Shown: positions 10,901-64,000 of the stretch, piece by piece
How the letters are laid out: each line of letters opens with the position of its first letter
How positions within the stretch are numbered: the first letter of the stretch is position 1
Source of the DNA: Larus michahellis
Lineage: Eukaryota; Chordata; Aves; Charadriiformes; Laridae
Assembly (NCBI RefSeq): GCF_964199755.1
Contig: NC_133917.1
Location: 5,399,967 to 5,463,966 of the forward strand
DNA length: 64,000 nt
Direction: 5' to 3'
Notes under the pieces: generated by a model
Told to the model about the DNA's origin: nothing
The model's database searches: none
The model's input: the letters and a program-made list of their open reading frames with translations, nothing else
Translations under genes and position numbers: made by a program

Positions 10901-12937
10901 GAAAAATGTTGATGGATCGCCTTTCTGCTGCTGTTGAGGAAGACGGGTTCTGCAGGGAGAGGTGCCTCCCAGGAGTGGGATATTAGAGGGGGATTAGTTA
11001 GGTACTGTGTTACGGGCTAGAGCACAAACTGGAGATACTTTTTTTCCCTTTCCTGTAGAAAGTTTGGTGGCTGTGTCAGGCTAGATGTTTGACTTGCAGA
11101 AAGCTAAGTTTAGGTGAGATTCATCCTACTGCCTAATGCTAAGCTGAACCACTTGCATCCCGTTTCACCCCAGGGTGCCTGGATGTGCCGCTAACAGGCA
11201 CTCACTTGTTCTTGAAATCCTCAACGAGGTCTTGCATGTTCTTCAGCTCCCCGTCCATGCGTCCTCTCTCGTTGAGCAGGTTGGCCAGCTGCCGTTTCAG
11301 GTTGTTGATGTAAGCCTCAAAGAGTGGGTCCAGGTTGCTTTTGCCCGAGTTGTTTTTTTGACCCTGGTCCTGTAGGAGGGTCCATTTGGTCTCAAGCACC
11401 TTGTTCTGCTGCTCCAGGAAGCGAACCTGCGCATTGGGGAGCAGAAGAGGCTTAGCAGAAGATACCTGTGAGCATGCTGGTGGCCAGGCGTCAGTAACTG
11501 GGACTGATGTGTAGCACAAACCAAGGAAATCCCAAACCAAGAGCATTAAATCTAGCTGTGAATATCCTCCAGATTATCTAGGGCCACGTTAGCCCATCCA
11601 GTAGCTAGGCAGTTCTGCCCTCAGTGGACGGTTCTCGTCAGAGACAATTTAATTTAGCAAGCCAATGAGCAATCATTAGAAAATGTGAGTTCAGCTCTTT
11701 CATTACTTGCTTTCTTTAACATCCTTTGGTTTTTCTTTCTTTGTAAGAGATATTTATCTTCCTTCATTAAAGCTAAGATCTGAGTACTACAGGTTAAAAG
11801 ACGAGTACTTAATTGCCTTTCCTTTTGCTCATATATACTACGTATTTACCCAAGTAGAAGCCAGGGAAGGACTTAAGTTGAGTCAATATACAAAGGACTT
11901 TAGCTTGCAGGCGAGAAAGCAATAAGGACTAATGCGTCTGCTGTGATTCCCCACAGAGAGCTGGGTTAAGCAGTGAGGTCTGGACCTGAAACTAGCCTAC
12001 TCCATTTGAGCTACTATTTCGTATTTTTCAGGCACAAAACCTGGCTCTAATCCTCTTACTACTAGTTTCCAGTCTAGTTTTCTGCCTTGTAACTGTTTAG
12101 AAGAATTTTCTTTTTTTGATTATTTTAATGAAGACACGCAGATAGGAAATATGCAATAGACTATAGATCTATGAAGTCATATTTTTGTAGCTGCAAGACG
12201 ATCTTGCCTCCCTCTCTGTCACGATTCCACAGCACGTGGCGAGGTCTCACCTTGTCAATGAAAGAAGCGAACTTGTTGTTGAGGGTCTTGATCTGCTCCT
12301 TCTCATCTTTTCGCACCTGATGGATGTTTGGATCTATCTCCAGGTTCAGTGGTGCCAGGAGGCTCTGGTTGACAGTCACTTCTTGGATAGTACCAACTCC
12401 GGGTGGGCCACCAACAAATCCTCCTGGGCTCCTGACACTACCCAGCCCTCCACTGAATCCTCCCAGCCCCCCTGTTCCGCCAAAGCCAAAGCCTCCACCA
12501 CCTCCCTGTCCACCACCAAAGCCAAGCCCACCAGCACCTCCACCAAAGCCATACCCACCACCTCCACCACCGAGACCAAGTCCAAGACCACCACCAGCTC
12601 CGCCACCACCAAGTCCACAGCCACCACCACCACCGCCACCTCCCAGGCCAGAGCCACCCCCAGCTCCACTCCCAAAAGCAGCTCGGAAGCTGCTTCCAAC
12701 ACCGATGGATATCCTCTTGCTACCACCAAGGTTGTAGAGGCTCCTGCTGCCAAAACCGCCGCCAAAACCACCACCACCTCCTCCTGTGAGCCTTCCAAAG
12801 CCACCTCCACCTCCTCCAGATCGTGCCACAGACATCGAGCTAAAGCCAGCCCTGTTGCTGCTTGGAAGAACAGCCGAGGCAGTGCTGTAAGACCTGCCTC
12901 CGCCTCCCGCTCTCATGCTGTAAGTTTGACGGTTCAT
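7999..12937 (-). CDS. Type II keratin B, complete (soft epidermal type, KRT5/KRT6-like)
   Basis: Nine coding exons: 12251-12937, 11206-11426, 10569-10629, 9977-10072, 9678-9842, 9431-9556, 8873-9093, 8719-8753 and 7999-8477 (TAA). They join in frame to 2091 bp, 696 aa. The start [12 protein letters not shown] was chosen because it lies after the TATA box and begins the keratin-like head; an in-frame ATG 39 codons upstream lacks keratin character. Head, residues 1-211, is rich in glycine loops with [16 protein letters not shown]. Rod, 212-526, has [19 protein letters not shown] at its start and [15 protein letters not shown] at its end. The tail has three perfect or near-perfect 30-bp repeats encoding a GGGGSGFxLG-type loop and a KRT5-like end ([16 protein letters not shown]) extended by about ten residues. 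Exon 2 is 221 bp, two codons longer than usual. The product should pair with a type I keratin in basal or suprabasal epithelium. KRT5 versus KRT6/75 orthology is not settled. Confidence 0.95.
8301..8390 (-). repeat. 30-bp coding tandem repeat in the tail of keratin B
   Basis: Three consecutive 30-bp units (8301-8330, 8331-8360, 8361-8390) are identical except for a few changes, and a more diverged unit precedes them. Each encodes ten residues of the glycine-loop type with one or two aromatic or aliphatic residues (GF.LG). Confidence 0.85.
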
Positions 12938-17659: not shown

Positions 17660-20600
17660 CTACCGGGTTGTTCTGACCACCCGCACAGCTGTGCTGTACC
17701 GGCTCCCCGCGCTGCAGACCCCAGCCCCGGGGATGATGACGGCTCCTGGGCTGCACTGCTCCATGCCGGCGCACACCACGTTGCCCAGGTTGGCCACCCC
17801 AGGGGCGCACTGGACCCCCTCAGCCCCGGGGATGACTTCTCGCCCCATGCAGCTGACGGCGCTCCTGGCCCCAAATCCGCCCCCCACCCTGGGGAGACAA
17901 TCCATGCTCCGGGTGCTAAAGCCAGTGCCGCTGACGCCGAAGGAAGAGACCACCCCTAACCCCCCACCGGCCCCTCCGGTCTTGACGGTGCATTTGCCTC
18001 CCATTCCAGACAGGGATCGGCACTCCCCGACGGTGCCACCACCGCTGACCACGGCTGTGGGAGAAAAACAGGCTCAGTCACTCCCGGAGCAGCTAAAGCC
18101 CATCTTATAAGGAAACTTATAAGCTTAAAAGACCTTTAAGGAAATTAAGGGGATGCTTCATTAGCTTACCTACGCTCACAGGGTTGCCGGTGCATATCCT
18201 GTTAAGAAAAGAAATGTCTCAGGAATGTATTTAGGGAAATATTCCTTCAAATACACAAGCGAATAGAGGTGCTGCCAGCCATCGCCTCCCGAGAAACACT
18301 GCAGGCATTTCAGCTTTTCTGTGCACCCAGGCGTCGGGTGCTGGTCCCAGTTGCCCACTGAAGCGCTGCAGGGTTGGACCCCCAAATCCCACAGGCATCT
18401 TAATATCCCGTCCTCTCCTTGTACCCCAGGCAGGAGAGCTGACTGTAGCACGCGCAGTGCGGTGTGATCCCGCTGCCCTGCGAGGATGAGGAGGAAACGG
18501 GGGCAATGCTCCCCTCTGCACCCACGGGGAGAAAAGGGGCGATGCTCCCCTCTGCACCCACGGGGAGCTGCCTCCACCCAGCATCTCCCCCTGCCTCTCT
18601 CTCCCCCTGTTGGGTTTTGCCAGCTATCGTGACAAGGGATGCTCCTACCTGCTCTCTTCTCCTTCCAGCAGTGTCCTGTAAGTGGCAATCTCAATGTCCA
18701 GGGCCAGCTTGACGTTCAGCAGCTCCTGGTAGTCCCTCAGCAAGCATGCCATCTTGTCCTTGGCTTGCTGCAGTGCAGTCTGCAGGTCGATCAGCTTCTG
18801 GCGGGCATCTTTGAGGGCACAGTCGCCCCGCTGCTCAGCGTCGCAGATGGCCGTCTGCAGGGCTGCGATCTGTGGACAGGAACGGGCGAACAGGTGGCCA
18901 GTGGTGATGTTAAGAGGTATCTCCACAGGGTTGCTCACGTACCCCCTTGGTTTTCAGCTAGGAACTGCCAGAGAGCCTGGGTTTAGGCCGGACACGTGCG
19001 ATGGCCAAGCTCTCTGGGGTGAAGGGGAGGGGACCTGTTGGCTGCACCCCAGTAGAATGATACAGCAAACGCTTTCTGTTGTAGCCAAACCAACTGGCTC
19101 CTGCTTATTTGCCAAGTGAGACATAAATCTGATTCTTTGTGTATTGACAGCAGAGGAGAAGCCACAAACACAGGCTTAAGCTGGGGTTGGGGCATTCTTT
19201 GCATCTCAACAGGGTGAGAGCTGGTGAGGACGAAGCCCTTCGCGTGCCCCGCTGCCCATGCAGCCTTCAGCCCTTCATCCTACCTGTTTCTTTACGTTAT
19301 CCGACTCGCACTGCAGCTTCTGGATCATCCGGTTGAGCTCGGCTATCTCGCTCTGGTTGTTTCGCAGGTCATCGCAGAACTTGCCCCTGCTGCTGTGGAG
19401 CTCCTCCAACTATTGCATGAGAAGAGGGTGACGTTAATGTGCCCGAATCGCCCCTTCCAGGGAAGGTGGCGACTCTCCAGAGCCGCACCAATGTCGGTGC
19501 TCCCGGGGAAGCACCCAGACGTGACCTCAGCCCAGACAGGGTGACAGTCCCAGGTAGGTCCCGAGCATTTGTCCTTTGGGCAGGGGATGGTGTTCCTGAT
19601 GGCTGTGCACAGAGGAGACCTCTCTGAAGGAACTCTGTGCACTGGTTTTACAGAAAAGTCTTAAAACACAGTTTTAAGGGTTGTTGGCGGTTTTTTTGGC
19701 ATGACTTTCTTTAGCAAACTACAGTGTATGTGCGCTGTGGGGTGGGTTTAAGTTGCGTCATGGAGGACAGAAATGGTCCTCAGAGTTTTGTTGGCCAAGG
19801 GGTTTCATTGCCATCTGTGCTGGTGGTGTGAATACTCACCCTGGTTTGGTAAAAGGCCTCCACTTCCGCCTTGCTCTTCTGGGCAATCTCCTCGTAGCAG
19901 CACTCAACGCTTTTGATGATGCCCTCCATGTCCAGGTCCCGGCTGTTGTCCATTTGCACGATGACAGAGGTGTCACACAGCTGGCAGTCCAGCTGAGCTC
20001 TCTCCTGCAAGGCCCACCACGTGTCAGTCCCTTTCCCTCAACCAGCCCAAGCCAGGCACGGAGGAACCCCTGGCAAAGGGGGGGTCTGGTGAGAAGGTGC
20101 AGGGTTGGGGGAGGTTCTCCCAGTAACGCCCAACTAGAGCGTGGGGTTCTCCAGCTAGAGTTCCCAGCAAGAGCTGGCTGCTGGGACCTGTTTTGGTGGC
20201 ACAGTATGGGATTGCTGCATAAAATTCCCTAAGGAAGGGTGGGGAATCCCAGCGGAGCAACTCGCTTTGATGCAACTCGGTGTTCCTGGCTGCGTCAGCG
20301 CTTTTGGGGGCTGTGGTGCCCCCGGGGGCAAGTGCTTTGGGCCCCATTGCCCACAGGCTGCTGGGAGGCGTTTGGGCAGGAAGGGTGTGTGTTTGGTGGA
20401 GAACTTGCTACATTTTAGCTGAAAGTATTACTTTCGCCAAAATATTTTGACTAATGTAGTTTAAAAAGTGAAGTACTAAAAATATTTGGGTTCTGAAGAC
20501 TGAGATGTTTCAGCAGTTCCCAGAGGTGGTTTGGCTGAGAATTTGAGGGGCTTTTTCATGCAAAAGGTCCCTCGTTTTTGCAGCCAGCAGTATGGGAGAC

Positions 20601-23600
20601 AGCCAAGAACGCCCTTTGCCTTCCCAAAGTGTGCGTAACTGTGTTGTTATGGAAGAGATGCAGATTTTTGGGATGCAATTTCAGGATTTTCAGAAAAGAC
20701 ACCCTTCCCTGCGTTTAGTTTTGGTGTAAGAGCTCAGGGGGCAGCAGATGATGCGTCGTCCCCGGGGCAGCAGACGGGGGGCCGGGGGCTCTTACCTCCG
20801 CGTAGATGCACTTCAGGAACTCCAGCTGCTGCCGCAGGAGGCCCACCCTCACCTCCAGCTCCTCCTTGGTCAGGTAGAGACAGTCCACGTCCTGGAGAGA
20901 CACCGGGTGAAAAGAGGTGGAGAAAGGAGGACTGTGGCAAAGCCCATGTTTTCTGTTAGATTTGGAGGAAGCCACACCATTTCCAGCCCTCAAGATTATC
21001 TGGGCTTGTGTTGCGTGTGCTTACAACCTAATGGGCGTTCCCCAAATTCATTGCATTACGTCTATTTTTGGGCTACCCAATGAGGGCTCAGGCAGCGTCG
21101 TGGTGCCAGGACCCCCCCATTTCTCTCCCTGGCCCCATACCTGGGTTTTGCCTGGGCAAAACCCCCCACTCTCAGCTGGTCTTGTCGGTGTTGTCCCTAG
21201 TGCGACTCACCTTCTTGAGGACCACAAACTCGTTCTCTGCAGCCGTGCGCTTGTTGATCTCATCTTCATATCTGCAGGAGGAAAGGAGAGGGGTGGGATG
21301 CGGAGCCCCGGGGGGTCCCGTCCCCACCACCCGAGCAGCCGGTGCAGAACATGGGGAGGGTGAGTAAAACCAGAGCCTCCCCCTGTTCACTGTGTCCCTC
21401 CTTTGTGATTTTTGCTTTGGTGCTTTTTCTCTCCTCCCCACCGGGTTTTGTTCAGCAGTTTTAAATAGTCCACACCAGCAGTATCGGTGGCTGGAGTGAG
21501 ACGGCAGTAAATCAGGCCAAACCACTAGAAATGCAAAACTGTGTAGCTCAGCCGAGGGCTTGGATTGCTGCTTCTAGCCCTGCTGCTCTGTGTGATGTTT
21601 TTCTGAAGCATCCAGGACTTTGCTCTGAGTGTTTGTGGGGAGACTGTGGCCAAAATGCCCCAAGGGAGGTCAGGAGTTGAGCAACCTTTGAAACTCCCAG
21701 GTGCGAAGGGAATGAAAGCCGGTGTGTAATGGCCAAGTAATTGGGGCTCGGGAGAACTTTCCCAAGATGAGTCTGACCTCCCGGTGGTGGCTCCGCAAGA
21801 AAGAGCGGCTGAGACGCTTGACCTTAACATCTCTGGAGAAAGGACTGCTCTTTGCCCCTGTGCTTTATACCACCAGCCACCAAGCGTCCTGGTTTGTGGC
21901 TTAGCAGAGCTCACGGGGAGCCATTAAGGAATATCTGCAGCTTAGATTAAAAACCCAATTCCCTCTGGGAAGAGAGAATGAACCCCAAGGGAGACGCTGT
22001 GGATAAAGCGTGGGGTGAAGAAAAATAGGCTGAGGGTTTTGTGGGAACGGATGACACTGGGGACAGGAGATTTGAGGGGAGCCACAGGCACAGATGATGT
22101 GGGAGATTTGATAGGGCGAACCGGGGCGGTGTGCGGGAGCGTTAGGGAGAGGGAAAGTGGTTCCCTGTCCCTCTCCCTAAGGAAACACTGTGGTTGAAGA
22201 GCTCTCCCAGTCCGTCGCCAGCATCTGAGGTGCAGCCGTGGGACCCCAGTACGGGAAACCAGCCCAGGACCGGTGTGCCCTGCCCTGCTCCACTCCCTGT
22301 GCCCCAGGTCTTGGGCCCATCCAGTGCGATTGCGTTGGCTTTGTGCTCAGAAAAGCCACGCCGGGCCAGCAAACACCCCGGTCTGCACCTTCTCCCCGCG
22401 TACGACTTACTTGCACTTGTATTCTTGAACCAGGTCCCTGAGGCACCGCTCCTCGTTCTCCAGCCTCTCCCGCTCCCCCAGCACACACTCCAGCTGCTTC
22501 CTCAGGTTGCAGATGAAGTTCTCGAAAACGGGCTCCAGGTTTCTCCGGGAAGCTGGCAGGACATACTGCTGCAGCAGCTCCCACTTGGTGGTCAGCACCT
22601 TGTTCTGCTGCTCCAGCAGCCGGACCTGGGGAAGGAAGAGATGCAAGAGTCATGCGACCCCCCCCGTCTTGTCCCACGCTTTGGGTTCCTCCACTTCCAA
22701 AAGGGAAAAATAAAAACAAAATCAGAAATGTGAGCGGTTAAGTGCTGATTTCTCAGTGAGAACAGCATCTTGTGTGAGCTAAAGCCGGTCCCAGCCAGGA
22801 CTCGTCTCACAGGCTGAACATGGCTGCGTTTGCTCTGTGTCGAGGCCAATCATGGGTTTGACCAAAGCACAGCTCAACCCAGCACCACCTCTTCCCCCGC
22901 GACAGCTGCCTGGTGGAGGATCCACTGCCTCCCCGATGGGCTGATTACGATAATGAGTCTTTCGCGGCACTCAAAGCTCCATCCAGGATCTCATTTGAAT
23001 GCATCTAATTAAGTTATCATGCCTTTCGCTTCTAGATTAAAGAGCTCTCTAGTACTTGAGAACCTTTATGGATCATGAATAAGTCATTTTTCAAATGGGA
23101 GGAAGCCGAGCAGCTTCTTTTGCGTGGGTTTGGTTTTTCCAGCTGCAGAACAACTCACAAGGAAAATCAAGATCAGAGAGAGCAAAAGTTTCTCTGCCGT
23201 TTGAAAAATCATTTCCTATAACACATCTCTAAACAGTAATGAAAACCCTTAGGCTTAGCTAAGAAAACAAGGATAAATTACAGCTGTTTAGGAAATCACC
23301 AAACCATTTGATACATGAAGTGGAGGAACAGAGACGTTCATAGGATCATAGAATGGTTTGGGTTGGAAGGGACCCTAAATGTTATCTTGTTCCAACCCCC
23401 CTGCCCTGGGCAGGGACATCTCCCACCAGGTTAAAATTGTACATCTCATTTTAGCTAGAATGTCCTTCTACATCTCCTTGACGAAGTGCTCAAACTGTTC
23501 TAAAGATGCAGACGTCCCTTGGGGTTTATAGAGGTGTGATAGCAACGTCAGACTATACATTTGTAATAAAGCTTCCTATTTTGCCTTTTTACATTTCTGT

Positions 23601-24434
23601 GTCTCCATCCCTTCTCTCCCAGGTTTTGGTGTCCTGTATCCCTGGAGCCGCTCCTGATTCGGCTATTTAGCAGATTGGTGACCATCGAAAGGTAAAATGC
23701 GATTGCCTTGGTGCAAGGCTTAAATCCAAAGAGTCTCCAGGTCAGGACCACTGTGGTCAATCAGAAACATTTACAATGTCGGGGCACCAGGAGAAGCAGC
23801 TACCGGCGTTGTCTCTCTAGAGACACTCCATCCACCAGAGCCATGGGGCGGGCGGCCCGTGTGGAGGGAAACGGGGTCTCACCTTGTCGATGAAGCAGGC
23901 AAACTGGTTGTTGAGGTTCTTGATCTGCTCCTTCTCGTGGGTCCGCACTTGGCACTCCTCGGGGTCGACCCCCACACAGAGGGGCTTGAGGAGCTCCGGG
24001 TGGATGCTGACGCCCCGAATCCCTTCAGATCTCCCTCCACCGAGGCCGATGCCGATGCTGCCGCCGTAGCCTCCGATGGCCACGCCGTCCCCAAGACCTC
24101 TGTAGCTGCCCAGGCCCCCGTAGCTTCCGCAGTTACCAAACCCCACGACTGTGCCCATGCCAAAGCGGCCTCCGCCGTAAGCCACCCCGCAGCGTCCGAC
24201 GCTGGCGCCACCGTAGACCCCGCCGCGGCAGCTCCCGCCGAAGGAAATCCTTTGCCCTCTCCCCAGGTCGCAGACGCTCCGGCTGCTGAAGCCACCGATG
24301 CCACATCTCCGTCCCACCGGCTGGCAGACGGAGGCTGAGCTGCTGTTGCCCCTGCCCAGCCCGCAGACGGCGGACGCCGAGGAAAAGCCCCGTCTTCCCA
24401 GGATGGAGCTGGAGGTGTAGCACTGTCGACTCAT
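17660..24434 (-). CDS. Type II keratin C, complete, cysteine-rich head and tail
   Basis: Nine exons: 23883-24434, 22411-22625, 21211-21271, 20796-20891, 19840-20004, 19284-19409, 18649-18869, 18170-18198 and 17660-18054 (TAG). They join in frame to 1860 bp, 619 aa. The start [16 protein letters not shown] sits about 105 bp below the TATA box. Head (1-166) carries many Cys (SRQC, AVCG, RRCG, SVCDLG) plus Gly/Tyr. The H1 block ([15 protein letters not shown]) replaces the soft-keratin LLAPL. Rod (167-479) runs from [20 protein letters not shown] to [15 protein letters not shown]. Exon 8 is 29 bp, against 35 bp in gene B, and encodes [10 protein letters not shown]. The tail has eight Cys and is not strongly Gly-repetitive. 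Such Cys content suggests disulfide-linked filaments in a hard or cornified tissue. It resembles bird 'cochleal-like' or hair-keratin-like type II genes, but exact orthology is unclear. Intron 1 holds a CR1 fragment and intron 2 a 13-bp perfect hairpin. Confidence 0.95.
22142..22180. repeat. Perfect 13-bp inverted repeat in intron 2 of keratin C
   Basis: TTAGGGAGAGGGA (22142-22154) and TCCCTCTCCCTAA (22168-22180) are exact reverse complements around a 13-nt loop. Confidence 0.85.
23341..23430 (-). mobile_element. CR1 LINE 3' fragment in intron 1 of keratin C
   Basis: Minus-strand CR1 3' end: the reverse complement begins at ATAGGATCATAGAATGG and runs through the 3' UTR to CTCCCACCAGG. Only about 90 bp remain. 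Confidence 0.85.
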
Positions 24435-38773: not shown

Positions 38774-41700
38774 CTATGGGACAACGCAGGGGTCTCTGAC
38801 AACCCCGAAGTTCCCCACCACGCCGTTGTTGCACCCCACCACTTCAGGGCTGTTGGCAACGACCACGGGGGAGCCCCCCAGCTGCCTGATGACGCAGCCT
38901 TGGTTTCCAAAGCTGACCACCCCACCAGCTTGGCAAGCCCCCATCCTAGCATTCAAGCCCCCGTTTCCCGTGCTGATGACGGTGCGGGCTGGGTACCCCC
39001 CGCTCCGGGAGCTGAATCCCCCATTTTTGCAGTTGACCCCTCCGGCTTGGCAGTACACCTCTGGGACACACTGCTTGGCCACTGAGCTAATGACTCTCTT
39101 GGGGTGGATCCCAGCGCTCCGGGAGCTGAATCCTCCGTTCTGGGAGCTGTGTCGTCCGGACCGTCTCCCCAGGGAGCCGTAGCCACACGCAGCCCCGTTT
39201 GCTGCCAGCATCCCGCAGTCGTCGGGGATATTGTAGCCGCTGCTGACCACAGCTGCAAGACAGCCCACAGGATCAATTACTGAGAGAGGAAAACTGGAAG
39301 ACTCACAAGGCAAGCTGTTTCATGAGCGACAGAACCGACCAAACCTGATTTCCTCTAGATTAGTCCAATGTATCTGAGCCCCTGCTCCTTCCAACTCCTC
39401 CCCCGTGTCCCAGCACATCCCCTCACAGATCCTCCCGGTTCCCACGTTGCTCATCTGGCTGGTGGCAAATTCTTTCCCGGGTTTAGCGCACAGGGGTGCG
39501 TTGCCTGGTGGGTTCACCAGGACACCTCACTGTTGCCTCCGAGAGTGAAGGGTCGCAAATTTGACCTTCCCCCCTCCATCCAAAAGCTGGGGGGAGTTTT
39601 TTGAAATTTGGAGGTATTTGGGATTTCTGTGACTAAAGCGTCAACATCAGCCTCGGTTGAAATGGAAAGGGAGGCAGAGGGAGCTGGGGTAGGCAGATAC
39701 TCCGTAAACTGCCTTTCCTAAAACGAGAAACCCTCATGGCTGTAAATCTTCAGGCTACTTACACACGCTCACCGGGTTCCCCACACATATCCTGTAAGGG
39801 GAGAGAAGAGAAATGCACGTTATCCTGTTAACCAGTTGCAGGCACATCTAGAAACCTGACGTTACTCATAACTTCCAGCCATACATCCAGCCCACTTAAT
39901 CCCCTGTTGTAACACGTCTGACTGTCCCTAGGCCAGGAACTGTTTTTGCTGGCACAAGGGTGGCCTGTGTGGCCTCCAGCCATCTCTCCAGCCCCAGTTT
40001 CTGTGAGCCTGGGAGGATCTTGGAGCAGAAGAATCCAGTTGGGAGCTAGAATCATTCTGGCCGCTGATATACAGGAGAAAAGGGAGAAGGTCTCTGTCAC
40101 CCACCTGCTCTCTTCACCCTCCAGTAGAGTCTTATACGTCGCAATCTCAATATCCAGGGCCAGCTTGACATTCAGCAGCTCCTGGTAATCCCGCAACATG
40201 CAAGCCAGCTCGTCCTTGGCCTTCTGGAGGGCATTCTGCAGCTCAACATGCTTCTCCCGAGCATCTTTCAGGGCACAATCCCCACGCTGCTCAACATCAC
40301 AAATGGAGGTTTGCAGGCAGGAGACCTGTCCGAGGGGAGGAGAACAGTGGAGGTGTCTTTAAGGCTTTGTTTCCTAATTCCTGGACATTCTGGTTTGGGA
40401 TTAATCCACTCTTCCAATCGTAACCAGAGGAAAAAAACACTGGCTTCCCTTCTCTCTATCCGCTTTTCAGCTATACACTTTCCAACTACAGCCTAGAGCA
40501 GGTTTGAGTCTACTAAAGGCCAATGCGTCATTTTCCCCCATATCTGAGCTGTCCTTCAATACATTCCCCTTTCCAGAAACATCACCTCTGGGCTTCTCTT
40601 ACCTGCTTCTTCACGTTTTCCAGTTCACACTGCAGCTTCTGTATCATCCGGGTTAGCTCTGAGATCTCACACTTGTTGCTCTGCAGATCATCGCAATACT
40701 TGCCTCTCTTATCCTGAAGCTCCTGAAACTGGAACCAAGAAAGAAGACGGTCATCGTTTTTGACCTGCAACCTGCTAAGTTGCCAGGCAGACACCCAGGT
40801 TGCTTCATACTCACCCTGGTTTGGTAGAAAGCATCAACTTCTTCTTTGCTCTTCTGAGCTATTTCTTGGTACCAGCATTCAACGTTCTTGATGATGCTTT
40901 CCATGTCCAGGTCTCGGTTGTTGTCCATTTTCACGATGACTGACGTGTCGCATAGCTGGCGATCTACCTGAGCTCGTTCCTACAGGTTGGGGAATGGCTT
41001 AGTCAGCTGTTAGCAATTCTCAGACTTTGTAGGGCTGGAACTAAGAGCCACACTGCTCAGCTGATGGGTATAACAAGTCAAGAAATGTCCCTCGGGTTGG
41101 CTCAGCAGAAAACCCTCCCTGCTGGATGAGTTGCCACATGTCAGCTGCTGACCTACATGCTGACCTGCAGCAATTCTGGCCACATCAAGGGCAAGGAATT
41201 TGAGTGACTTAACCCTTGGTATCCTGTCATCTTCAGCTGCTTTACTGATGTTAATGACAGGGTTAAGCTGGTAGTTTCTTTAGCTCTAATCAGACAACTG
41301 CAATCCGGAGTAACGAGACAGACGCATCTCTTTTCTCAGGGCTAGAGTTAAGACCCAGCCAATTCATACCTGGAGCTGCATTAAGAAAGGGGGAACCACC
41401 CTATATCCAGCGTAATCATGCTAATATTCTATCAACTTTGTGGTTCCATGCTTTCAAGTATTCAGGGCTTGGGATGAGGGATGTCCAAGAGGCATCTCAA
41501 GCAGCTGAAAGATGAGACAGCACTACCAAACTCCTGGGGCGGACCAGAGAAACTCACCTCCTCAAATACACATTTCAACAGCTCCAACTGCCTTCTTAAC
41601 AGATCCACCTTCACCTCCAGCTCTTCCTTGTTCAAAAAGATACAGTCTGCATCCTGAAAGAGAGGAGACACGTTCCAGCCCCATCTCACCGAAAATGTTG

Positions 41701-44205
41701 GAGAAACTCACAGAAGACAGAGGCAGCCCCAATAAAACAGAAACGTGTTTCAACAAGATTTCAAGAGTAGAAAGGTGTGAGAGGGTGAGTCAAGATGCCC
41801 TGGTGTCTCCTAAAGGAAAATAAAACCATGCCAACGTGACTTACAGGGATTAGTTTATTTATTACTTAGGACCTAGCTACAAACTCAGAATTGACTAATG
41901 AGTATTTAAACATAATTTTTTAATATTGTTCAAATGATTTCTGCTTTTCTGATGTCCAAGAATAAAGGATGTGGAGAGACGGTCAGAAAATAACCAGCGT
42001 CTTAGACACCAGGTATTCCAGCATGACCTCTCCCACTCCGTCTCCCTTCCACAAATACACCCTCCCATTACACTTGAAGAATGTGCTTGGGGTAAGAAAA
42101 CTATTGCTGTAGTGCTGATGATGTAAGCTTTGAGGATACATTATTTTTACTTACTACTTGCATTTGCCTCTTTTTCTGACCCTGTGCCTCTTCACAGGCC
42201 TCCCTCTTTCTGCTCATTGGAACACTTTTGCCAGGCATTTGCTAATAATGCATGATTTCTGCCAAGCTTTACCCCAGATAAACCTATTATGGGTGTAATG
42301 ATTCATCTATTTTGAGCTGCTCACCTTTTTGAGTGCCACAAACTCATTCTCCACAGTTGTACGCCTGTTGATTTCCTCTTCGTATCTGTTGGAAAAGGAG
42401 AAGAAAAAAGGCTGAGGCAAGCAATGCCATCAGAGACAGAGACATTAACCGTCAGGTATAAATAACAACCTTCGCTTGCCCAGAGACTGCCATCAGGCAC
42501 CGCCAGATCAGTGTCTGGAGACCAGGCATTATACCGTCCCAAGATCAGAAGCTTCTTCATGAGCAACAGCATTAACAATGCAAAGAGTTTGCAAGTGAGA
42601 CAGAAGAATGTGACATCCCCAAAGGGGATGTGCCACATGTCTGGGAGGCATTGCCTGAGCTGAACCAGAGGAGGAGTGATATGCCAACGGCTAAAGGAGA
42701 CCTGAAGGTCCTTACTTGCACTTGAACTCCTCCACCAGCTGGCTGGTGGCACATTCTTCGCTGCCCAGTTTTTGCTTTTCGCATAGCAAGCAGTCCAGGC
42801 GCTTCCGCAGGTCGCAGATGTAATTCTCGAAGTACAGTTCAAGGTTTTTCCCTTTCTTTGGCAGGACGTATTGCTGCAGGAGGCCCCACTTGGTCTCCAG
42901 CACTTTGTTCTGCTGCTCCAGGAATCGGACCTGCAGGCCAAAAAATAGCAATTCTTCAAATAAAGAGAAGAACGCGGTGAGTTGACGCCTGGTTTAACTG
43001 TCTGCTCTCACCTAAGAATAGTATTTTCGGGAAGTGAGAGGCGATATGCCACAGTGATTGTAAATCTATCTGCCCTTATTTAAAAGTCACGTCTCAATTA
43101 TTTAGAAATCTGAAAGTCACATGTCTAAATCTGCCTTTCTCGCCAACGAATAGAAATAAAGCTCCTCTGGAGGTGCCGCTGATGTATTTTTGGATGAGAC
43201 TGAGTCCCCAGAGGGTGGAACCTGTTTGTCTTTGTGTTTTCTACAAAGGGATCCTAAGGTGACAGCTCAGACTTACCCATCTAACGTTTAGGTGCCTGAA
43301 TCAAGATTAACCTCATTTGCCTTCAGGAATGTCATTGGAACCATCGCTATATTTAAAGACAAAGTGGGGGGAAAGGGTCTAATACAGTACAGAAGATGAG
43401 CCCATCGGGGCTGTAACTTCCAGCTGAGCTAGAGCAAGGCTGCAATGAGAAATCCAGCCTTGAACTGAAGCCGTCCAGAGAGGAGACACTTGCAAGAAAG
43501 TCCAGTGCTACCGTGGCCATGATACAAACACCAGCAAATACTAGGACCAGCGTGCAGCTGAAACGAGCCCTTCCGCAGTAACGAAGATCCCAGTCTGCAC
43601 CAACATGGCTCTGTGGGGACCTGGACCCTTGTGTGGACCCAGTTTGGGGATTCATGGCACCAGCTGGGCTGGGGGGTCAGAGGGGGGGTTTGGTTGTGTT
43701 TCATTTTTCTGGGAGAAGTGCGAGTACGGAGCAGGTTTGCACTCACCTTGTCGATGAAGCAGGCAAATTGGGTGTTGAGGGTCTTGATCTGTTCCTTCTC
43801 CTGGCAGCGTATTTCATGTTCCAGCGGGTCGACCCCAACGCAGAGGGGCTTCAGAAGCCGCTCATCGATGCAGATACCTTGGATGCCATCCGCCTTGCGA
43901 TCGGGGTAGCCCCTCACAATACTATATCCCCTGGGGCCGCAAAGGCCAACCCTTCCTCCAACGCTACCGTAGCCTACGCCTCCAAAGCCGAACTCCCCAA
44001 AACATCCAGTACCGCAGACCCCATTGACGTAGGAAATCCTCCTGTTTCCACCCAGGTTGCAGACGCTCCTGCTGCTGTAGGCACCAGCTCCGCATCGGCC
44101 GGGTTGGCAGGCGGAGGCGGCGTAGCTTCGACCACAAATCTCCGAAGCTGAACTGAAGCCTCTTCGTCCCAGGACGGATCTCACTGTAGGCGCCTGTCTG
44201 CTCAT
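38774..44205 (-). CDS. Type II keratin D, complete, cysteine-rich
   Basis: Nine exons: 43747-44205, 42716-42930, 42325-42385, 41558-41653, 40815-40979, 40603-40728, 40105-40325, 39763-39791 and 38774-39252 (TAG). They join in frame to 1851 bp, 616 aa. The start [20 protein letters not shown] follows a TATATAAGG by about 95 bp. Head (1-135) is Cys/Gly/Tyr-rich with [18 protein letters not shown]1 is [15 protein letters not shown]. Rod (136-448) runs from [26 protein letters not shown] to [15 protein letters not shown]. Exon 8 is 29 bp. The tail (168 residues) has nine Cys and two diverged copies of a block containing NGGFSSRS.G...R.VIS, plus a repeated CQAGGV. It should form obligate heteropolymers with a type I keratin, and the Cys suggest disulfide cross-linking in hard tissue. 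Exon 7 is unusually similar to that of gene E. It is closest overall to C. Bird gene nomenclature is uncertain. Confidence 0.95.
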
Positions 44206-49966: not shown

Positions 49967-52900
49967 TTAGATCTGGGTGTTCCCGGGGCACGGAGGTCCA
50001 GTGGAAATCCTCACCCCTGGCCAACACGTGCCTTGTGGGTGAGCTGAGGACCCCATGCTCTTGGTGGCTCTGCAGCTCCCTGCACTCCTGCTGCAGAGTC
50101 CACCACTGCCCAGAGGGGCTGAGCTCTGGCACGAAGGGCCCCCATCTCCAGCCATAAGTCTGGGGATGCAGCTGGGAGCACCAGGGATGTACTGCCTGCC
50201 TTCAGAGCTGGCAGCGCTTCTGGAGGCGAATCCTCTGTGGCCGGCACCAGCGTCTTCGGGTAGGGATGCTCCACCAGCGCTACAGGAGGACCTGCGTCTT
50301 CTGGACCGTCTACCAGCTCCACACCCCGGGTCGGCTGCACAGGTAGTGATGGCGTTGCAAGCGGTGGTGATCGCTGTCATGGGGAAAGGCAAGCTGAAGC
50401 ACTCATGGGGAGGACACAGCCTTCCTCCTCCCCTGCAAACCAGAACAGGATTGTCTAAGGTCATAAGGAAAACAGAAAAGCTTGAGCTTACTTACACACT
50501 CTCACAGGGCTCCCAAGGCATATCCTGAAGGAGAAGAAGGTCACAGGGTTAGCCACCATGTAACTAGTGTTTCTAGCATTTTCCAGCCTCCCTGTCTCTG
50601 CCAAAGAGTCCCAAGGACTGAACAGTGCCCACACATGGTCATGGTGGTACCCACCTGCTCTCCTCACCCTCCAGTAGAGTCTTATACGTCGCAATCTCGA
50701 TATCCAGGGCCAGCTTGACATTCAGCAGCTCCTGGTAACCCTGCAGCATGCGAGCCAGCTCGTCCTTGGCCTTCTGGAGGGCATTCTGCAGCTCAGCGTG
50801 CTTCTCCCGGGCATCTTTCAGGGCACAGTCCCCGCACTGCTCAGTATCACACACCGATGTTTGCAGAGAGGACACCTGCCAGGGGGGACACAAGAAGTCC
50901 TTACTTTCCCTGCCCTCTTTCTTGCCACACTCACCTTTGAAGGAGAAATCCTCACTTCTTTTGAAAGTGCCAAGTTGGGAAGTATTGAGGTTGTTTTTAG
51001 GAAAGCCAAACGTTTCCAAAATCAGATGTCAACTCTGAAGTAGTACAGAAAGGCTGGACTTGTCCCTGCACTGCCAGACTGTGTTTAAGTCTTGTTTCGA
51101 GGATACCAATGCTTTGTTCTAATTGTAACTAATAATTAAGGTTTTCCTTTACTTCCCGTTATAAACTATATAATGAATTAGATGGTCTGAAAATTATACC
51201 AGTTTCTATGGGTGCTGAATTACTGGTGAGTCATAATTCTACCCTACTTATTGGATGCTTTGAACCTGTGTCAGAAGCATTGTCTTCTGCCAGAATTCTC
51301 GCTGGAGCAATTTTAGCAATTTTCCGAGTGGCTGTAGCTGATCCAACTATCTAATTTGGTGCAATTAGTTCTTTGCAATAATCAAAATGATCCAACAGAA
51401 AATAGGCCAGCAGATAATCCTTCTTCCCTGCTCAGCACTGGTAGGATCTTCTCTAGACCAATGGAGCCAGTGTGAGGCAATGCTCTTTGCTAAAGACGAA
51501 AGAAATGTAGAAAACGTGACCTGGGATCTCACATCTGGGATCTAGTGAGTAAATATGGGCCATCATACCTGCTTCTTCACATTTTCAAGGTCACACTGTC
51601 TTCTCTGGATCGCAAAACCCAGCTCTTCAGTCTCTTGCTGGTGGGACTTCAGTTCATTGCAACATCTCCCCTTTGCCTCCTCAAGCTCTTGGAACTGGTG
51701 GTAAGGAAGGAGAGAGGTGGCAATTAATACTGGTAGCGTAGGCAGTATAGGAGCCTTGAGTCTGTTTCCAGAGTGAATTAAACTAGGTTTAGAAAAGTCC
51801 TCATGACTTTGCAGCTCCTGAGGCTTCCAGCAGCAAATGGAGCTTCCCTCCTGTAGCTTCCGTTGTTCAACTCGCCTACAACCTCCCCGTTCTCCACGGG
51901 ACTGAGTCCTGTCCCATTGTGCTGTATCTGTTCTGGGGATGTTCTCCTGACTTTGACACTCAAGGAGTTTTGCAGAATGGAAAATTAGGTCCACAAATTA
52001 CATAGTGAAGCCAAAAGGAAAAAATCACCACCTTTGCACTACTACTTTTGACAGTGAGAGAATTAAGGCTACATCGCTGGATGCTACAACTTACCCTGGT
52101 TCTGTACAAGGCATCCAGCTCTGCTTTGCTTTTCTGAGCTACATCCTCGTACCAGCACGCAACGCTCCTGAGGACACCCTCCATTTCCAGGCCTCGGCTG
52201 TTGTCCATCTTCACGATGACAGAGGTGTCACAGGGACCTCTCTCCAGCTCAGCGATTTCCTAAAAGCCATGTGAAGTGGCAATAAGCTGTCAGGATGTCT
52301 CAGTCCCGTCCCTGGCGTTCTTATCTCACACTCCAGTGGCAGTAACACCACCACGGAGTGTCTGACCTGAGCCACAACTCAGGAGTTGAGACTAGATTTG
52401 GTCACACATGCAGCTTGAGGATTTGGGGTTTTTTGAGATCTCAAAGTCTTCCCTATCTGGGATCCCCGGGGGGCGGGGGGATGCCTACCAAAGGGAGCCT
52501 AATGGATTGGTTTAATCAGGCCTAAATCACCGTAGACAAGGAGCGGATGGTAAGAATACCTGCCATCAAACAAGGTTGGGACAGGGGCATCCATACCTGA
52601 GCAGAAACACATTTCAGGAACTCTGTCTCCTGCTTTAGGGTTTCCACCTTTGCTTCCAGCTCTGCCTTGGCCAAATAGACACAGTCTGCATCCTAAAAGA
52701 GTTTCCAGGCATTTAGAAGTCAAAATGGTGCCTAGGCGGAGACCTAAGGCAATTTCATCATATTTTTAGAGTAAGAAATTTTGTTTAGGAAATGTAATTG
52801 GGAAGCTCAGATGTCCCCTGAACAGAAACAGCTGAAGGGTCCCAAAGGCATATAAAATAGTGCTGAGTTCTTGCTTGAAAAACATCATGACTTGGGCATT

Positions 52901-54545
52901 AGGACAAGCAAGCTGTCAGGTTAGAACGGACAGAGGTTTCATGCGCTCTGGCAATACTGTGTGACGTGTTTTTCCATACTTGGCCAATGACTTTTAACAT
53001 TCTCAAGACCTAGCCCTTGCCTTGCAAGGAGCAGATCAGAGGGAAGTCCTTGGATCTCCGCATCCAACCCTTCCGTTAATACAAATTCCTTACCTTCTTC
53101 AGTAGCACGAACTCGTTCTTGGCAGCTGTGTGTCTGTTCCCTTCCTGCTGGTATCTGTTGGGGAAGAGAAGAGCTGAGTTGTTGGGTCGTTCTGAGACTG
53201 GAGACCTTGTTTGTTGGTATTTAGGGGTCAGGGCGCTTTTGGATCTCAGCCTTTTTTTAGACAGAAGTCTATTTATATGGACAAAAATAAAAGTCCATTA
53301 GAGAAGCTGTTTGAGCTCACCGCCCCGTGGGTGGTTTCTGCTCACTCACTTGCATCTGAACTCTTCAACAAGCTTCTCCGTGTCGATCAACTCAGGCTCC
53401 ATCTGCCCCTTCTCGTGCAGCAATGAGTCCAGCCGCCTCTGCAGGCTGCAGATGAAGTTGTCGAAGATGTGCTTGATGTTTTTACGGGATGGCAGGACCT
53501 GCTTTTGGAGTAGGTCCCATTTGGTGGCCAACACCCTGTTCTGCTGCTCCAGATGCTGGACCTGCATTCAGAAAGCAAAGCCACCTTCTTCAGACACGTG
53601 CATTGTACGGGGACCAGACGAATGCGGGGTCAACAAGGCATCTGCTCTTCTGAGTCAGTGCTCCAGGGGCTTGTTGTGGTTTGAAGGCAATGAGAGGACA
53701 AAAGGGGGGCATTGCCATCTTCATAATCCTATAATCCTACATCTGGACATGCTGTTCTCCAATTCTCCAAGGAAGCCCTAGACAGCACGGCCTTTGTGTC
53801 AGCTACAGAAATGGAACTGGGGGGTGGAACTGGATGATCTTCAAGGTCCTTTCCAACCCAAATCATTCTGTGATGATTCTATGATCAAATCACATAAGCA
53901 CATAAACCAGATTAAAATAACATTATCAGCTTGACCTGCACTTGCAGCCCATGGTACTGGAGCCACACATGCTAAAACGAGCACAAGGCTCATGTAATAG
54001 GATGAGAGAAGGAGAGGAATCAAAGACCTGAGCGCAAAAAGGTTTCCTTCACACTTAAATCTCATCATTCCTTTAAGCCTTGTCTCAGCTCTCACCTTGT
54101 CAATCAAAGAGGCAAACTGGTTATTGAGGCTCTTCATCTGCTCTCTCTCCTGCTTTCGGATGTGCTGGATTTCAGGGTCGATCTTCACCTCGAGAGGCTG
54201 CAGCAGGCTCTCATTCATGAGCACGGCACGAATACCTTCACTTCTGCAGCTCCTGCCGTGGAAGCCTAACCCAGGACTCCCACCTTCACCGTTGGCATGG
54301 ACGCCCCTGCACCCCCAGCCTCCCCACACCCCTTGTGCGAGGCTTCGGCCAGAAGAAATGCATTGACACCCATCTGTGTTTTGGGGGCTTTGGCTGCTGT
54401 GGCTCCAGGCTCCGTAACCTCTTCCAAATAGTGCCGCAGAGGGGAAGGCGCTGGTCCGGCAGCGGCTCATGCTGCTCACAGCAGAAGATGACGAGAAGAA
54501 CTTTCTTCCATGAAACGACCTCCCAGCTGACAGCTGCTGGCTCAT
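49967..54545 (-). CDS. Type II keratin E, complete, cysteine-rich and divergent
   Basis: Nine exons: 54096-54545, 53350-53561, 53094-53154, 52597-52692, 52095-52259, 51569-51694, 50655-50875, 50496-50524 and 49967-50373 (TAA). They join in frame to 1767 bp, 588 aa. The start [17 protein letters not shown] follows a TATA box by about 92 bp. Head (1-132) is Ser-rich with fewer glycines. Rod (133-444) shows unusual changes at normally invariant ends: [11 protein letters not shown] and [15 protein letters not shown], where consensus has F and RF. Exon 3 reads [15 protein letters not shown]. Exon 2 is 212 bp, one codon shorter than usual. Exons 4 and 5 use TAG acceptors. The rod end, [10 protein letters not shown], is normal. 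The tail has ten Cys and an Arg run ([11 protein letters not shown]). No stop or splice defect is seen, so it is probably functional though fast-evolving. Intron 1 carries a short CR1 3' end. It is the most diverged of the Cys-rich set, except for exon 7, which closely matches D. Confidence 0.92.
53820..53886 (+). mobile_element. CR1 LINE 3' end in intron 1 of keratin E
   Basis: Plus-strand CR1 terminus: GGTGGAACTGGATGATCTTC, then AAGGTCCTTTCCAACCCAAA and TGATGATTCTATGATC. About 65 bp are recognisable. Confidence 0.85.
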
Positions 54546-59230: not shown

Positions 59231-59579
59231 CTTCCTTTTCCACCTTTCATTCTACAAAGCAGATCAGTAAAAAAAACCCACAGATCTAACCACAGTGTTC
59301 ATATTATTTCTTTATTTCTTCTAATTAGAGATGAGAAGCTCTAGGCACGCTGTCTACATAATTAATTTCACAGTGAAACTAAAGCCCAACAATAGTTGGT
59401 AGTGTGCAGAATTACCTCTCACAGCTTCCACTTCTTATTGTGAGGAGGGAGGCTTTGTCTTGATTGAAGACTCTTACTCAAGCTCTTGGGTATAAAATGG
59501 GGTTGTTACGACGCAGCTTATCTATCACTTGGAGCATGAACGGAACTGTTTCAGCGAGTTATGTAGAAGCAGCCATTAA

Positions 59580-60290: not shown

Positions 60291-61792
60291 ATAAACCGTC
60301 TCAGCTGTTGGAGGGCACCTTTGCACGGCATTTTGCAAGCCAGGGCAGACTCACACCACCCACACGCTGAACCCGTGGGCTGCGAGCCAGGGCAGATGAA
60401 AACACAGGCTTATCTCAGCAGGGTTTGCTAACACAATCTCCGTTTTCGCTGCCGCAGCTGACTGCTTCACAGCCTGCGTAGGGCTTTCTGCATTTGATGA
60501 GGGCCGTGATAACCTAGTTTTGACTGAAATAGCGTCTAGGCCTCCCCCCATGCAGAGCTCTCATGACTGCTTCCAGACTGTGCCATAAAGGTTTGATTCA
60601 GCCCTTTGTGGCTCCCCATCAAAACCTTAACTGTTTTCGTGGCTCTGTGGCCATTTGCAAATGGGTCTCCATGGTGGATTTCCCACCAAGCTGAGTATGT
60701 CACTGCCCACAGGCAGCCACCCCCAGCACGCTTCACAGTGGGATTTCTTTGAAAAAATAGTTAAGAAGATCCTACCTTCCCTCTGACTGGGGAAAAGACA
60801 AAATATTCCTGATGGGACTGTGACACTCCAGTTATCTAAGTGGAGTGTTGCTAAATTAAGTTGACACAGTTACATCGAACGTCTTGAACGAACTGTCCCG
60901 GTAATCTCAGCGGCTCCGCTCTTCATTAGGGCTTTTGATTGGACTTAAAGGAGGTTCTGTGAGAAATTTCGAAAACCTCTTCCTACCTCTGCATAGAGGT
61001 GACCATTGAATCAGATGTTGGCCAAAAGAAAGTCTTACTTGGGTACATACCATCCAGCTTTGATTTAGGACCCCAAGGGAAAAATGGGACTAGAAGCAAG
61101 ATAAGGAGCCGTTATTGTTCCTAAACTTTCTGCTCCTTTCTTTATCTGCAGCTGCAATGCTCACAAAACCTACATGGACAATTCGATCCGTCCCCTGGTT
61201 AGTTAAAGAGTGACTCCGTGTGGGAATGGTGGAACTGAGACGTAGCCATGTCCTACTTGACTGGATAGATCAGGCCAACAGGACTTGTCCCCTTGGAACA
61301 CATTTTCACAGCAGGTGTTCAGCATATGCTCCCCGCCCCCAACAGACATTTCTTTTGTAAACATCTTCTTCCACTTTTTCACTATTTTTTTTCATGAGGT
61401 TGGATCAGATCTCCATAAACTGGTTGATATGTTTAAAGAGCTCTTTCAAAAATCTCATCATACACGTGAGAGTCAAGACCTCCCACAGACCAGTGCACAC
61501 ACAACAGAGAGGGTTTCAAGCTTTTAGTTGCCAAAGACAAAGGTTCCAAACAGCCTGAGGTGTAGAGAAAGCCTAAGGGAACGGTAGCAACGATCACAAT
61601 ATTGTCATAAAACCTAGGGGGTGTGCCTGGAGAATTCAGGACATGGCTGTGCAGGGACAAGAGAACTCGGGATTATGTGCGACCAGTTCAGAAGAGCGGT
61701 GACACAGTGGTGGGCAGGAAAGCCACCCTCGCGTCCAATAGTGAGGGGAATGCCATCTTCCCATTCCACTGGCACATTTTTGCATGCAAGTT

Positions 61793-64000
61793 TTACTTGT
61801 GGGAAGCACCTCCAGAAGAACCAGAGCCACTTCCATAAACGGACGTGTAATCCCACCTTCCAGGAGGGCACCCTCCTTCAGAGGTACATTCTCCAGACCC
61901 ATCTCGCGGGCTGTATCTCCCAGATCCATAGCCCCCGTCCCCCCCAGAGCCATACCCTCCACTGCCAGGACTGCAGAAACCCCCGGACCCAGATCCCCAA
62001 CCTCCAGAACCATACCCAGCACTGCCAGAACTGCAGATATGACCACAGCTCGATCCCCAAGCTCCAGAGAGAGAACTTCCTCCTCCGCCAGAGATGGAGC
62101 CTCTCCTGCCAGAGCTGCTGCCACCGCTAGAGCTCAGCCCACCACTTTGGGGGCTGCATCTGCCACTGCCTGAGCTGGATCCTCCTCCATAGCTATGGCC
62201 ACCTCCAGAGATGGAGCCTCCACTGCCTGAGCTTCCTCCTCCTCCATACCCTGAGCCTCCAGAACAGATAGACCCACTATTGCCAGAGCCACCTCCTCCT
62301 CCTCCTCCACCACCAGAGATGGAGCCTCTCCTGCCAGAGCCAGATCCTCCCCCATAGCTGTGGACACCTCCAGACATGGAGCCTCCACTGCCAGAGCTTC
62401 CTCCTCCTCCATAGCCTGAGCCTCCTCCACCACAGATGGACCCACCACTGCCAGAGCTGGATCCTCCCCCATAGCTGTGGCCACCTCCAGACATGGAGCC
62501 TCCACTGCCTGAGCTTTCGCCTCCTCCATAGCCTGAGCCTCCTCCACCACAGATGGACCCACCACTGCCAGAGCTACCTCCTCCTCCACCAGAGATGGAA
62601 CCTCTCCTGCCTGAGCTGGATCCTCCTCCATAGCTGTGGCCACCTCCAGACATGGAGCCTCCACTGCCAGAGCTTCCTCCTCCTCCATAGCCTGACCCTC
62701 CTCCACCACAAACAGACCCACCACTGCCAGAGCTACCTCCTCCTCCACCAGAGATGGAACCTCTCCTGCCTGAGCTGGACCCTCCTCCATAGCTGTGGCC
62801 ACCTCCAGACATGGAGCCTCCACTGCCTGAGCTTCCTCCTCCTCCATAGCCTGAGCCTCCTCCACCACAGATGGACACACCACTGCCAGAGCCACCTCCT
62901 CCTCCACCACCAGAAATGGAGCCGCTCCTGCCAGAGCTGCTGCCACCACCAGAGCTCAGCCCACCACTGTGGGGGCTGCATCTGCCACTGCCCGAGCTGG
63001 ATCCTCCTCCATAGCTGTGGCCACCTCCAGAGATGGAGCCTCCACTGCCTGAGCTTCCTCCTCCTCCATAGCCTGAGCCTTCTCCACCACAAATGGACCC
63101 ACCACTGACAGAGCCACCTCCTCCTCCTCCACCGCCAGAGATGGAGCCCCTCCTACCAGAGCTGGATCCTCCTCCATAGCTGTGGCCACCTCCAGACATG
63201 GAGCCTCCACTGCCTGAGCTTCCTCCTCCACCATAGCCTGAGCCTCCTCCACCACAGATGGACCCACTACTGCCAGAGCCACGTCCTCCTCCTCCACCAC
63301 CAGAGATGGAGCCTCTCCTGCCTGAGCTGGATCCTCCTCCATAGCAGTGGCCACCACCAGACATGGAGCCTCCACTGCCTGAGCTTCCTCCTCCTCCATA
63401 GCCTGAGCCTCCTCCACCACAGATGGACCCACCACTGCCAGAGCTGGATCCTCCCCCATAGCTGTGGCCACCTCCAGACATGGAGCCTCCACTGCCTGAG
63501 CTTCCTCCTCCTCCATAGCCTGAGCCTCCTCCACCACAGATGGACCCACCACTGCCAGAGCCACCTCCTCCTCCACCACCAGAGATGGAGCCTCTCCTGC
63601 CAGAGCTGCTGCCACCACCAGAGCTCAGCCCACCGCTGTGGGGGCTGCATCTGCCACTGCCTGAGCTGGATCCTCCTCCATAGCAGTGGCCACCTCCAGA
63701 CATGGAGCCTCCACTGCCTGAGCTTCCGCCTCCTCCATAGCCTGAGCCTCCTCCACCACAGATGGACCCACCGCTGCCAGAGCCACCTCCTCCTCCTCCA
63801 CCACCAGAGATGGAGCCTCTCCTGCCTGAGCTGGATCCTCCTCCATAGCTGTGGCCACCTCCAGACATGGAGCCTCCACTGCCACAGCTTCCTCCTCCGC
63901 CATAGCTTGAGCCTCCACCACAGATGGACCCACCACTGCCAGAGGTACCTTCTCCTCCACCAGAGATGGAACCTCTCCTGCCCGAGCTGGATCCTCCTCC
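61793..64000 (-). CDS. Gene F: giant Gly/Ser/Tyr/Cys tandem-repeat protein, 3' part; probable tail exon of a type II keratin
   Basis: One uninterrupted frame runs from the right edge to a TAA at 61793-61795, at least 735 codons, with no stop and no visible splice acceptor. A unit of about 55 residues repeats about twelve times: (M/I)SGGGH(S/C)YGGG, SSSGRRGSISGG, a Gly run, SGSGGSICGG, GGSGYGGGG, SSGSGGS. One full unit holds 31 Gly and 15 Ser. After the repeats come Gly/Ser/Cys/Tyr sequence, an acidic patch (GECTSEGG) and the end SSGGASHK. The Tyr/His/Cys-spaced glycine loops are like the tails of KRT1/KRT2-type keratins and loricrin. The keratin neighbourhood and strand favour a keratin exon 9. 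Only one Lys and one Gln occur, unlike transglutaminase-crosslinked loricrin. No start codon can be assigned; internal ATGs are repeat-unit methionines. The rod, if present, lies right of the window. Confidence 0.75.
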   Translation of the reverse strand, partial: GGGSSSGRRGSISGGGEGTSGSGGSICGGGSSYGGGGSCGSGGSMSGGGHSYGGGSSSGRRGSISGGGGGGGGSGSGGSICGGGGSGYGGGGSSGSGGSMSGGGHCYGGGSSSGSGRCSPHSGGLSSGGGSSSGRRGSISGGGGGGGSGSGGSICGGGGSGYGGGGSSGSGGSMSGGGHSYGGGSSSGSGGSICGGGGSGYGGGGSSGSGGSMSGGGHCYGGGSSSGRRGSISGGGGGGRGSGSSGSICGGGGSGYGGGGSSGSGGSMSGGGHSYGGGSSSGRRGSISGGGGGGGGSVSGGSICGGEGSGYGGGGSSGSGGSISGGGHSYGGGSSSGSGRCSPHSGGLSSGGGSSSGRSGSISGGGGGGGSGSGVSICGGGGSGYGGGGSSGSGGSMSGGGHSYGGGSSSGRRGSISGGGGGSSGSGGSVCGGGGSGYGGGGSSGSGGSMSGGGHSYGGGSSSGRRGSISGGGGGSSGSGGSICGGGGSGYGGGESSGSGGSMSGGGHSYGGGSSSGSGGSICGGGGSGYGGGGSSGSGGSMSGGVHSYGGGSGSGRRGSISGGGGGGGGGSGNSGSICSGGSGYGGGGSSGSGGSISGGGHSYGGGSSSGSGRCSPQSGGLSSSGGSSSGRRGSISGGGGSSLSGAWGSSCGHICSSGSAGYGSGGWGSGSGGFCSPGSGGYGSGGDGGYGSGRYSPRDGSGECTSEGGCPPGRWDYTSVYGSGSGSSGGASHK
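62075..64000 (-). repeat. Coding minisatellite of gene F with three unit types
   Basis: Units begin at (M/I)SGGG, for example at 63868, 63703 and, last, 62212. Full units are 165 bp. Long units carry an extra GRCSPHSGGLSSGGG block and short units lack the RRGSISGG block. Reading 5' to 3' from 63868 the order is full, long, short, full, full, long, full, full, short, full, long. This suggests unequal exchange of multi-unit blocks. Confidence 0.88.

Follow-up and report, generated by a model that had tools for sequence, protein, structure and literature searches.

A very long glycine-rich tail encoded by a repeat array in an apparently intact type II keratin gene of Larus michahellis, most likely the orthologue of KRT78LT

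At the right-hand edge of a 64-kb window of the Larus michahellis genome (the whole stretch of DNA analysed here, C26:5399967-5463966), a glycine- and serine-rich reading frame runs off the end of the sequence, raising the question of what kind of protein it belongs to and how far it continues. On the minus strand, the frame is open for 735 codons from position 64000 to a TAA stop at 61795-61793, confirming the initial annotation of at least 735 Gly/Ser/Tyr/Cys codons in a single frame, and it encodes 360 Gly, 215 Ser, 28 Tyr, 26 Arg, 22 Cys, 1 Lys and 1 Gln among its residues. No other stop-free frame in the window is as long (the runner-up has 303 codons), and when the segment was shuffled 300 times with its dinucleotides preserved, none of the six frames exceeded 331 codons. 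The frame can be divided into 12 units of 52, 55, 74, 39, 55, 55, 74, 53, 53, 39, 55 and 131 residues, in agreement with the three recurring lengths (about 55, 74 and 39 residues) first proposed for it. By this division, 11 repeat units of 39, 52-55 or 74 residues occupy 62189..64000 (minus strand), and at 61793..62188 (minus strand) a last 74-like unit is followed by a unique C-terminus, ...DYTSVYGSGSGSSGGASHK, before the TAA; the 131 residues of the twelfth unit include that C-terminus.

Differences among the window units already favour this frame. Relative to the consensus of each column, 11 units showed 38 synonymous and 21 non-synonymous single-base changes, against 23.2 and 34.3 expected, leaving out the last unit, codons with multi-base differences and columns covered by fewer than four units. 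The two other minus-strand frames of these units had no synonymous excess. The plus-strand frame that shares third positions had a nearly equal excess, which is dictated by that geometry; we rejected antisense coding, the plus-strand frame being broken by stops into pieces of 278 and 297 codons. Pfam assigned no family at E 0.01 to the repeat itself or to four last-exon readings.

The reading was extended past base 64000 into the assembly (1,405,500,149 bases in 616 contigs). A 608-base repeat query had at least 36 matches in the assembly, and all of the matches listed fall in this single array, the one candidate place scored. Followed past the window edge, the repeat frame is open for 2,672 codons. 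The 735 codons and stop seen in the window (61793..64000, minus strand) form the 3' part of the last exon of a long-tailed type II keratin gene, an exon of 8,003 nt in total that continues to C26:5469761. The predicted gene model has nine exons on the minus strand (C26:5475710-5461759) with AG/GT splice boundaries, lengths of 588, 218, 61, 96, 165, 126, 221, 29 and 8,003 nt, in-frame joins and a single terminal stop. Exons 4-6 (96, 165 and 126 nt, with AG/GT boundaries) are equal in length to those of four neighbouring keratin genes, B-E below.

In type II keratin genes, exon 7 ends at the rod terminus and is followed by a short exon 8, usually of 35 nt, and by an exon 9 that carries the tail. 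The predicted gene has this layout, with keratin exons 1-7 upstream of the repeat and an exon 8 of 29 nt that was picked by splice score from several candidates. To the right of base 64000, the initial annotation had anticipated a cag acceptor, a short exon 8 and an exon 7 ending in KLLEGEESR; the acceptor (ttgcag, at exon 9) and the short exon are there, and exon 7 ends instead in IAMYRSLLEEEENR (SLLEEEENR). The upstream sequence thus gives keratin rod exons, not a single-exon gene without a keratin rod.

The predicted protein has 3,168 residues (about 271 kDa), 96 Cys and no premature stop. It matches Pfam Filament over positions 1-313 of 313 (E 3.1e-92) and Keratin_2_head over positions 1-161 of 161 (E 7e-20). 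In a search of solved structures, the first match was full-length vimentin, and the best keratin chains were of type II (K5 and K1). Given the eight upstream keratin exons and the full-length matches to a type II keratin head and a filament domain, the proposal that the repeat is a type II keratin tail holds: as read from the sequence, it is the last-exon tail of an apparently intact predicted type II keratin with complete head and rod.

Neither AATAAA nor ATTAAA occurs within 2.4 kb downstream of the stop (window 59316-61793), where weaker hexamers lie at 267 nt (ACTAAA), 416 nt (AAAAAG) and 649 nt (GATAAA). In genes B-E, the first AATAAA or ATTAAA is found 53-816 nt past the stop.

The complete array comprises an irregular 223-residue start, 40 internal units of 39, 52-55, 74 or 91 residues and the 131-residue end. 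The order of its units had been described as non-random from the window alone. No such order was detected in the window's 12 units (distinct-trigram test, P = 0.92), but the description holds for the complete array, in which the longest repeated run of unit classes is nine (P = 0.010, 3,000 shuffles); since a nine-unit run was reached in about 1% of shuffles, a higher-order structure is supported there. Units 25-33 repeat the nine units 16-24 at 99.44% DNA identity over 1,596 nt, the differences being 9 codons and one gapped codon, and units 6-9 are 98.47% identical to units 10-13. Exactly repeated words extend up to 500 nt, and none of 600 nt was found. The repeat number rests on the assembly, and near-identical blocks of 1.6 kb leave copy number open to assembly error.

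The comparison with the column consensus, extended to all 40 internal units, gave 289 single-base differences. Of these, 189 were synonymous (120.4 expected) and not one created a stop (7.75 expected; 0 of 2,000 simulations were stop-free). This analysis left out unit 1 (223 residues), unit 42, codons with multi-base differences and columns covered by fewer than eight units. When each change was counted once per column and codon, 52 of 85 were synonymous against 31.9 expected, a value that 0 of 5,000 simulations reached, and there was again no stop (2.77 expected). The two other minus-strand frames, across the full array, lack a synonymous excess and do gain stops. Between recent block pairs, synonymous and non-synonymous counts are about even and too small to judge (5 and 4; 4 and 6; 4 and 3), non-synonymous changes being not rarer than synonymous ones. 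The pattern in the array is the mark of a frame that is translated and kept by purifying selection, its units being related by duplication and so not independent.

The tail that follows the rod is 2,676 residues long, all but nine of them (2,667) from the last exon, and has a mass of about 215 kDa with 102 basic and 12 acidic residues. Its last-exon part is 50.0% Gly and 29.4% Ser and contains 90 Cys, 24 Lys and 6 Gln; the protein ends in ...GSSGGASHK. A total of 246 aromatic or aliphatic residues serve as anchors, separated by loops with a median length of 11 residues, and the cysteines have a median spacing of 29 residues, most commonly within the motif GSICGG (39 of 90 Cys). This layout fits glycine loops, as described in PMC8072682 and PMC6447390, in which disulfide sites recur at regular intervals. 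That Lys and Gln are nearly absent had been taken to argue for disulfide and not transglutaminase linkage. That is true of the last 735 residues, with one of each, and does not extend to the whole tail, with 24 Lys and 7 Gln; the first 1,941 residues hold 23 Lys and 6 Gln, and therefore both disulfide and transglutaminase linkage are possible.

To which keratin does this tail belong? The window contains five type II keratin genes, A-E, all on the strand of the repeat. Genes A (cut by the left window edge) and B are cysteine-poor and glycine-rich; C, D and E are cysteine-rich, with about 35, 38 and 30 Cys, counts that are approximate because exon 8 was omitted and exon 9 was read from the previous stop. 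We compared these genes with the chicken HBS1-3 reagents (primers and an HBS1 peptide) printed in PMC7086170. Gene C (17663..24434, minus strand) is assigned as the orthologue of chicken HBS1 because it matches 13 of the 19 residues of the HBS1 peptide, the next best gene matching 8; gene D (38777..44205, minus strand) as that of HBS2 because primer HBS2-s matches it only, with 1 mismatch; and gene E (49970..54545, minus strand) as that of HBS3 because primer HBS3-s matches it only, with 0 mismatches. The remaining primers were less specific. HBS1-a had no match at up to 4 mismatches, HBS1-s lies in a motif common to four genes (0-2 mismatches), and HBS2-a had 3 mismatches in D and a chance-like 4-mismatch match at 19970. 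One primer goes against the assignment: HBS3-a matched best in C (HBS1), with 1 mismatch, and worst of the four genes in E (HBS3), with 4. Gene B (8002..12937, minus strand), labelled KRT5-like because it lies across the HBS genes from the giant-tail gene, carries in its glycine-rich tail a small tandem repeat of 30 bp in 4.5 copies (window 8270-8404).

The giant-tail gene is the next keratin upstream of HBS3 on the same strand, its stop lying 7.2 kb from the HBS3 start codon. Searches with keratin queries placed type II keratin genes on both sides of it; the next full set of type II rod exons upstream is at C26:5490903-5493659, and its rod is 66-71% identical to those of two KRT5-like genes. 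The locus also contains degenerate keratin sequence. Between HBS1 and HBS2 (window 30771-32633, minus strand) there are relics resembling exons 4, 5 and 7, perhaps a dead HBS copy; the exon 7-like relic has an in-frame stop, and the other two are weak matches (E 0.38 for exon 4 and 0.23 for exon 5). Farther upstream than the giant-tail gene, an exon 7-like relic with a stop and a frame break lies at C26:5486817-5487031 and a partial exon 1 at C26:5483948-5484022. Repeats of the ATTCTATG type, presumably CR1 retroposon 3' ends by the look of the motif, occur at window positions 15589, 23338 and 55316.

A K78-like type II keratin beside the HBS genes, KRT78LT, was described in 2019; its tail exceeds 1,700 residues in the American alligator, and it has more than 50 Cys, the figure 2 legend giving 66 for the alligator (PMC7086170). 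The suggestion that a tail of this size would be exceptional is thus weakened by the published record: the long-tailed kind of keratin is known. New here are the intact avian copy, the greater length of its tail and the resolution of its higher-order repeat. The gene described here lies in the type II cluster flanking the HBS genes, has a tail of 2,676 residues and contains 96 Cys. On the basis of position, tail length and Cys count, it is most likely the orthologue of archosaur KRT78LT, since it adjoins the orthologues of chicken HBS1-3, the place described for KRT78LT. Likened by description, it shares with KRT78LT of the American alligator and chicken its status as a type II keratin beside the HBS genes, a tail well over 1,000 residues and dozens of Cys; it differs in the length of the tail (2,676 residues versus the reported >1,700) and in having no premature stop, unlike the 2019 chicken assembly. 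Our survey of the open-access literature found no intact avian KRT78LT tail this long and no repeat map, which may exist in subscription papers and supplements outside its scope.

With the HBS keratins (KRT78LC1-3), the giant-tail gene shares type II identity, cysteine richness, adjacency and orientation, whereas their last-exon readings span 137-181 residues (upper bounds, read from the previous stop) and lack long glycine repeats. In a midpoint-rooted tree of seven rods from the locus, HBS genes C-E form a clade (99/97) with the giant-tail gene outside, so we rejected membership of the HBS group. The giant-tail rod has diverged from the other six rods of the locus (48-55%) and stands alone on a long branch, its placement unsupported.

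Several other explanations of the locus deserve weighing. The tail's 50% Gly and 29% Ser, its Tyr and Cys and its glycine-loop layout resemble loricrin (PMC6447390, PMC11431283), and Pfam gives the repeat itself no family, as might be expected if a single-exon loricrin-like cornified-envelope gene merely happened to sit in a keratin cluster. Avian LOR1-3 (PMC6447390) share the Gly/Ser/Cys loops anchored on Ile, Tyr and Met, but loricrin as described there is a gene of the epidermal differentiation complex with Gln/Lys crosslinking sites, a one-exon CDS (stated for mammals) and no keratin rod. Here, a cag acceptor opens the repeat exon, which joins eight upstream keratin exons in phase, and the C-terminus lacks the Gln/Lys-rich end of loricrins. 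In searches with keratin queries, the gene lay among type II keratin genes on both sides and not in the epidermal differentiation complex. The predicted model of nine coding exons contradicts a loricrin or other single-exon gene, and we regard this account as extremely improbable. Decay into a pseudogene is suggested by the chicken and Chinese alligator copies, which had premature stops in their assemblies and looked degenerate in 2019 (PMC7086170), by the absence of a canonical poly(A) signal close downstream and by the long branch of the rod. It is hard to reconcile with 3,168 codons without a stop, AG/GT splice sites and the strong synonymous excess in the array, or with the detection of KRT78LT as a protein that is strongly enriched in the beak over the egg tooth of chicken embryos (PMC12821399); given that protein, the chicken stops may be assembly errors. 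A pseudogene is therefore very unlikely.

The gene could also be a distinct long-tailed type II keratin paralogue, a reading that we consider unlikely. The rod has no supported placement in the seven-gene tree, and long repeat-containing tails occur in other sauropsid keratins (PMC11816140), but a position beside the HBS genes, a tail above 1,700 residues and more than 50 Cys are all as reported for KRT78LT (PMC7086170). Somewhat less improbable, though we still do not favour it, is a real gene whose tail length is an artefact of collapsed or expanded blocks in the assembly. The 99.44% identity of blocks 16-24 and 25-33 over 1,596 nt and the exact repeated words of up to 500 nt are what such an artefact might produce; against it, there is no exact repeated word of 600 nt, 9 codons and one gapped codon distinguish the two nine-unit blocks, and the contig is 7.0 Mb long with no N within the 104 kb read. 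Weighing these together, we have high confidence in the reading of an intact type II keratin that has a long tail, is most likely the KRT78LT orthologue and would have the tail role proposed below.

From general keratin biology, the rod would pair with a type I keratin and join ordinary 10-nm filaments, from whose surface the tail would project as disordered glycine loops. During cornification, disulfides would link the tail cysteines to adjacent filaments, to HBS keratins and to further cysteine-rich proteins of the horn. With a filament-bearing rod and a disulfide-forming tail, one chain would provide the filament and, in part, also the matrix; in the beak and other hard epidermis it would serve as a crosslinker or spacer. 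We infer this disulfide-matrix or crosslinker function in line with the crosslinking role proposed for long repetitive sauropsid keratin tails in PMC11816140 (citing Parry and Winter, 2021). The wall lizard keratin of Parry and Winter likewise has a long repetitive tail and a proposed role as filament crosslinker, though it is a lizard gene and is likened here by description only. The array itself would grow or shrink through in-frame duplication of entire multi-unit blocks. More speculatively, and with considerable doubt, this may be a single chain that carries its own cornification matrix, with a tail more than five times the length of head and rod and perhaps the longest keratin tail known, encoded by a higher-order minisatellite; the number of blocks would differ between members of the species and thereby set how densely disulfides crosslink the horn.

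The intact 3,168-codon frame in Larus michahellis, for whose tail there is now a unit map, shows that KRT78LT can look intact in species other than the American alligator, and assemblies in which such genes have stops should be read with caution. As a natural experiment, the array could reveal whether horn mechanics depend on how many repeats a filament tail contains.
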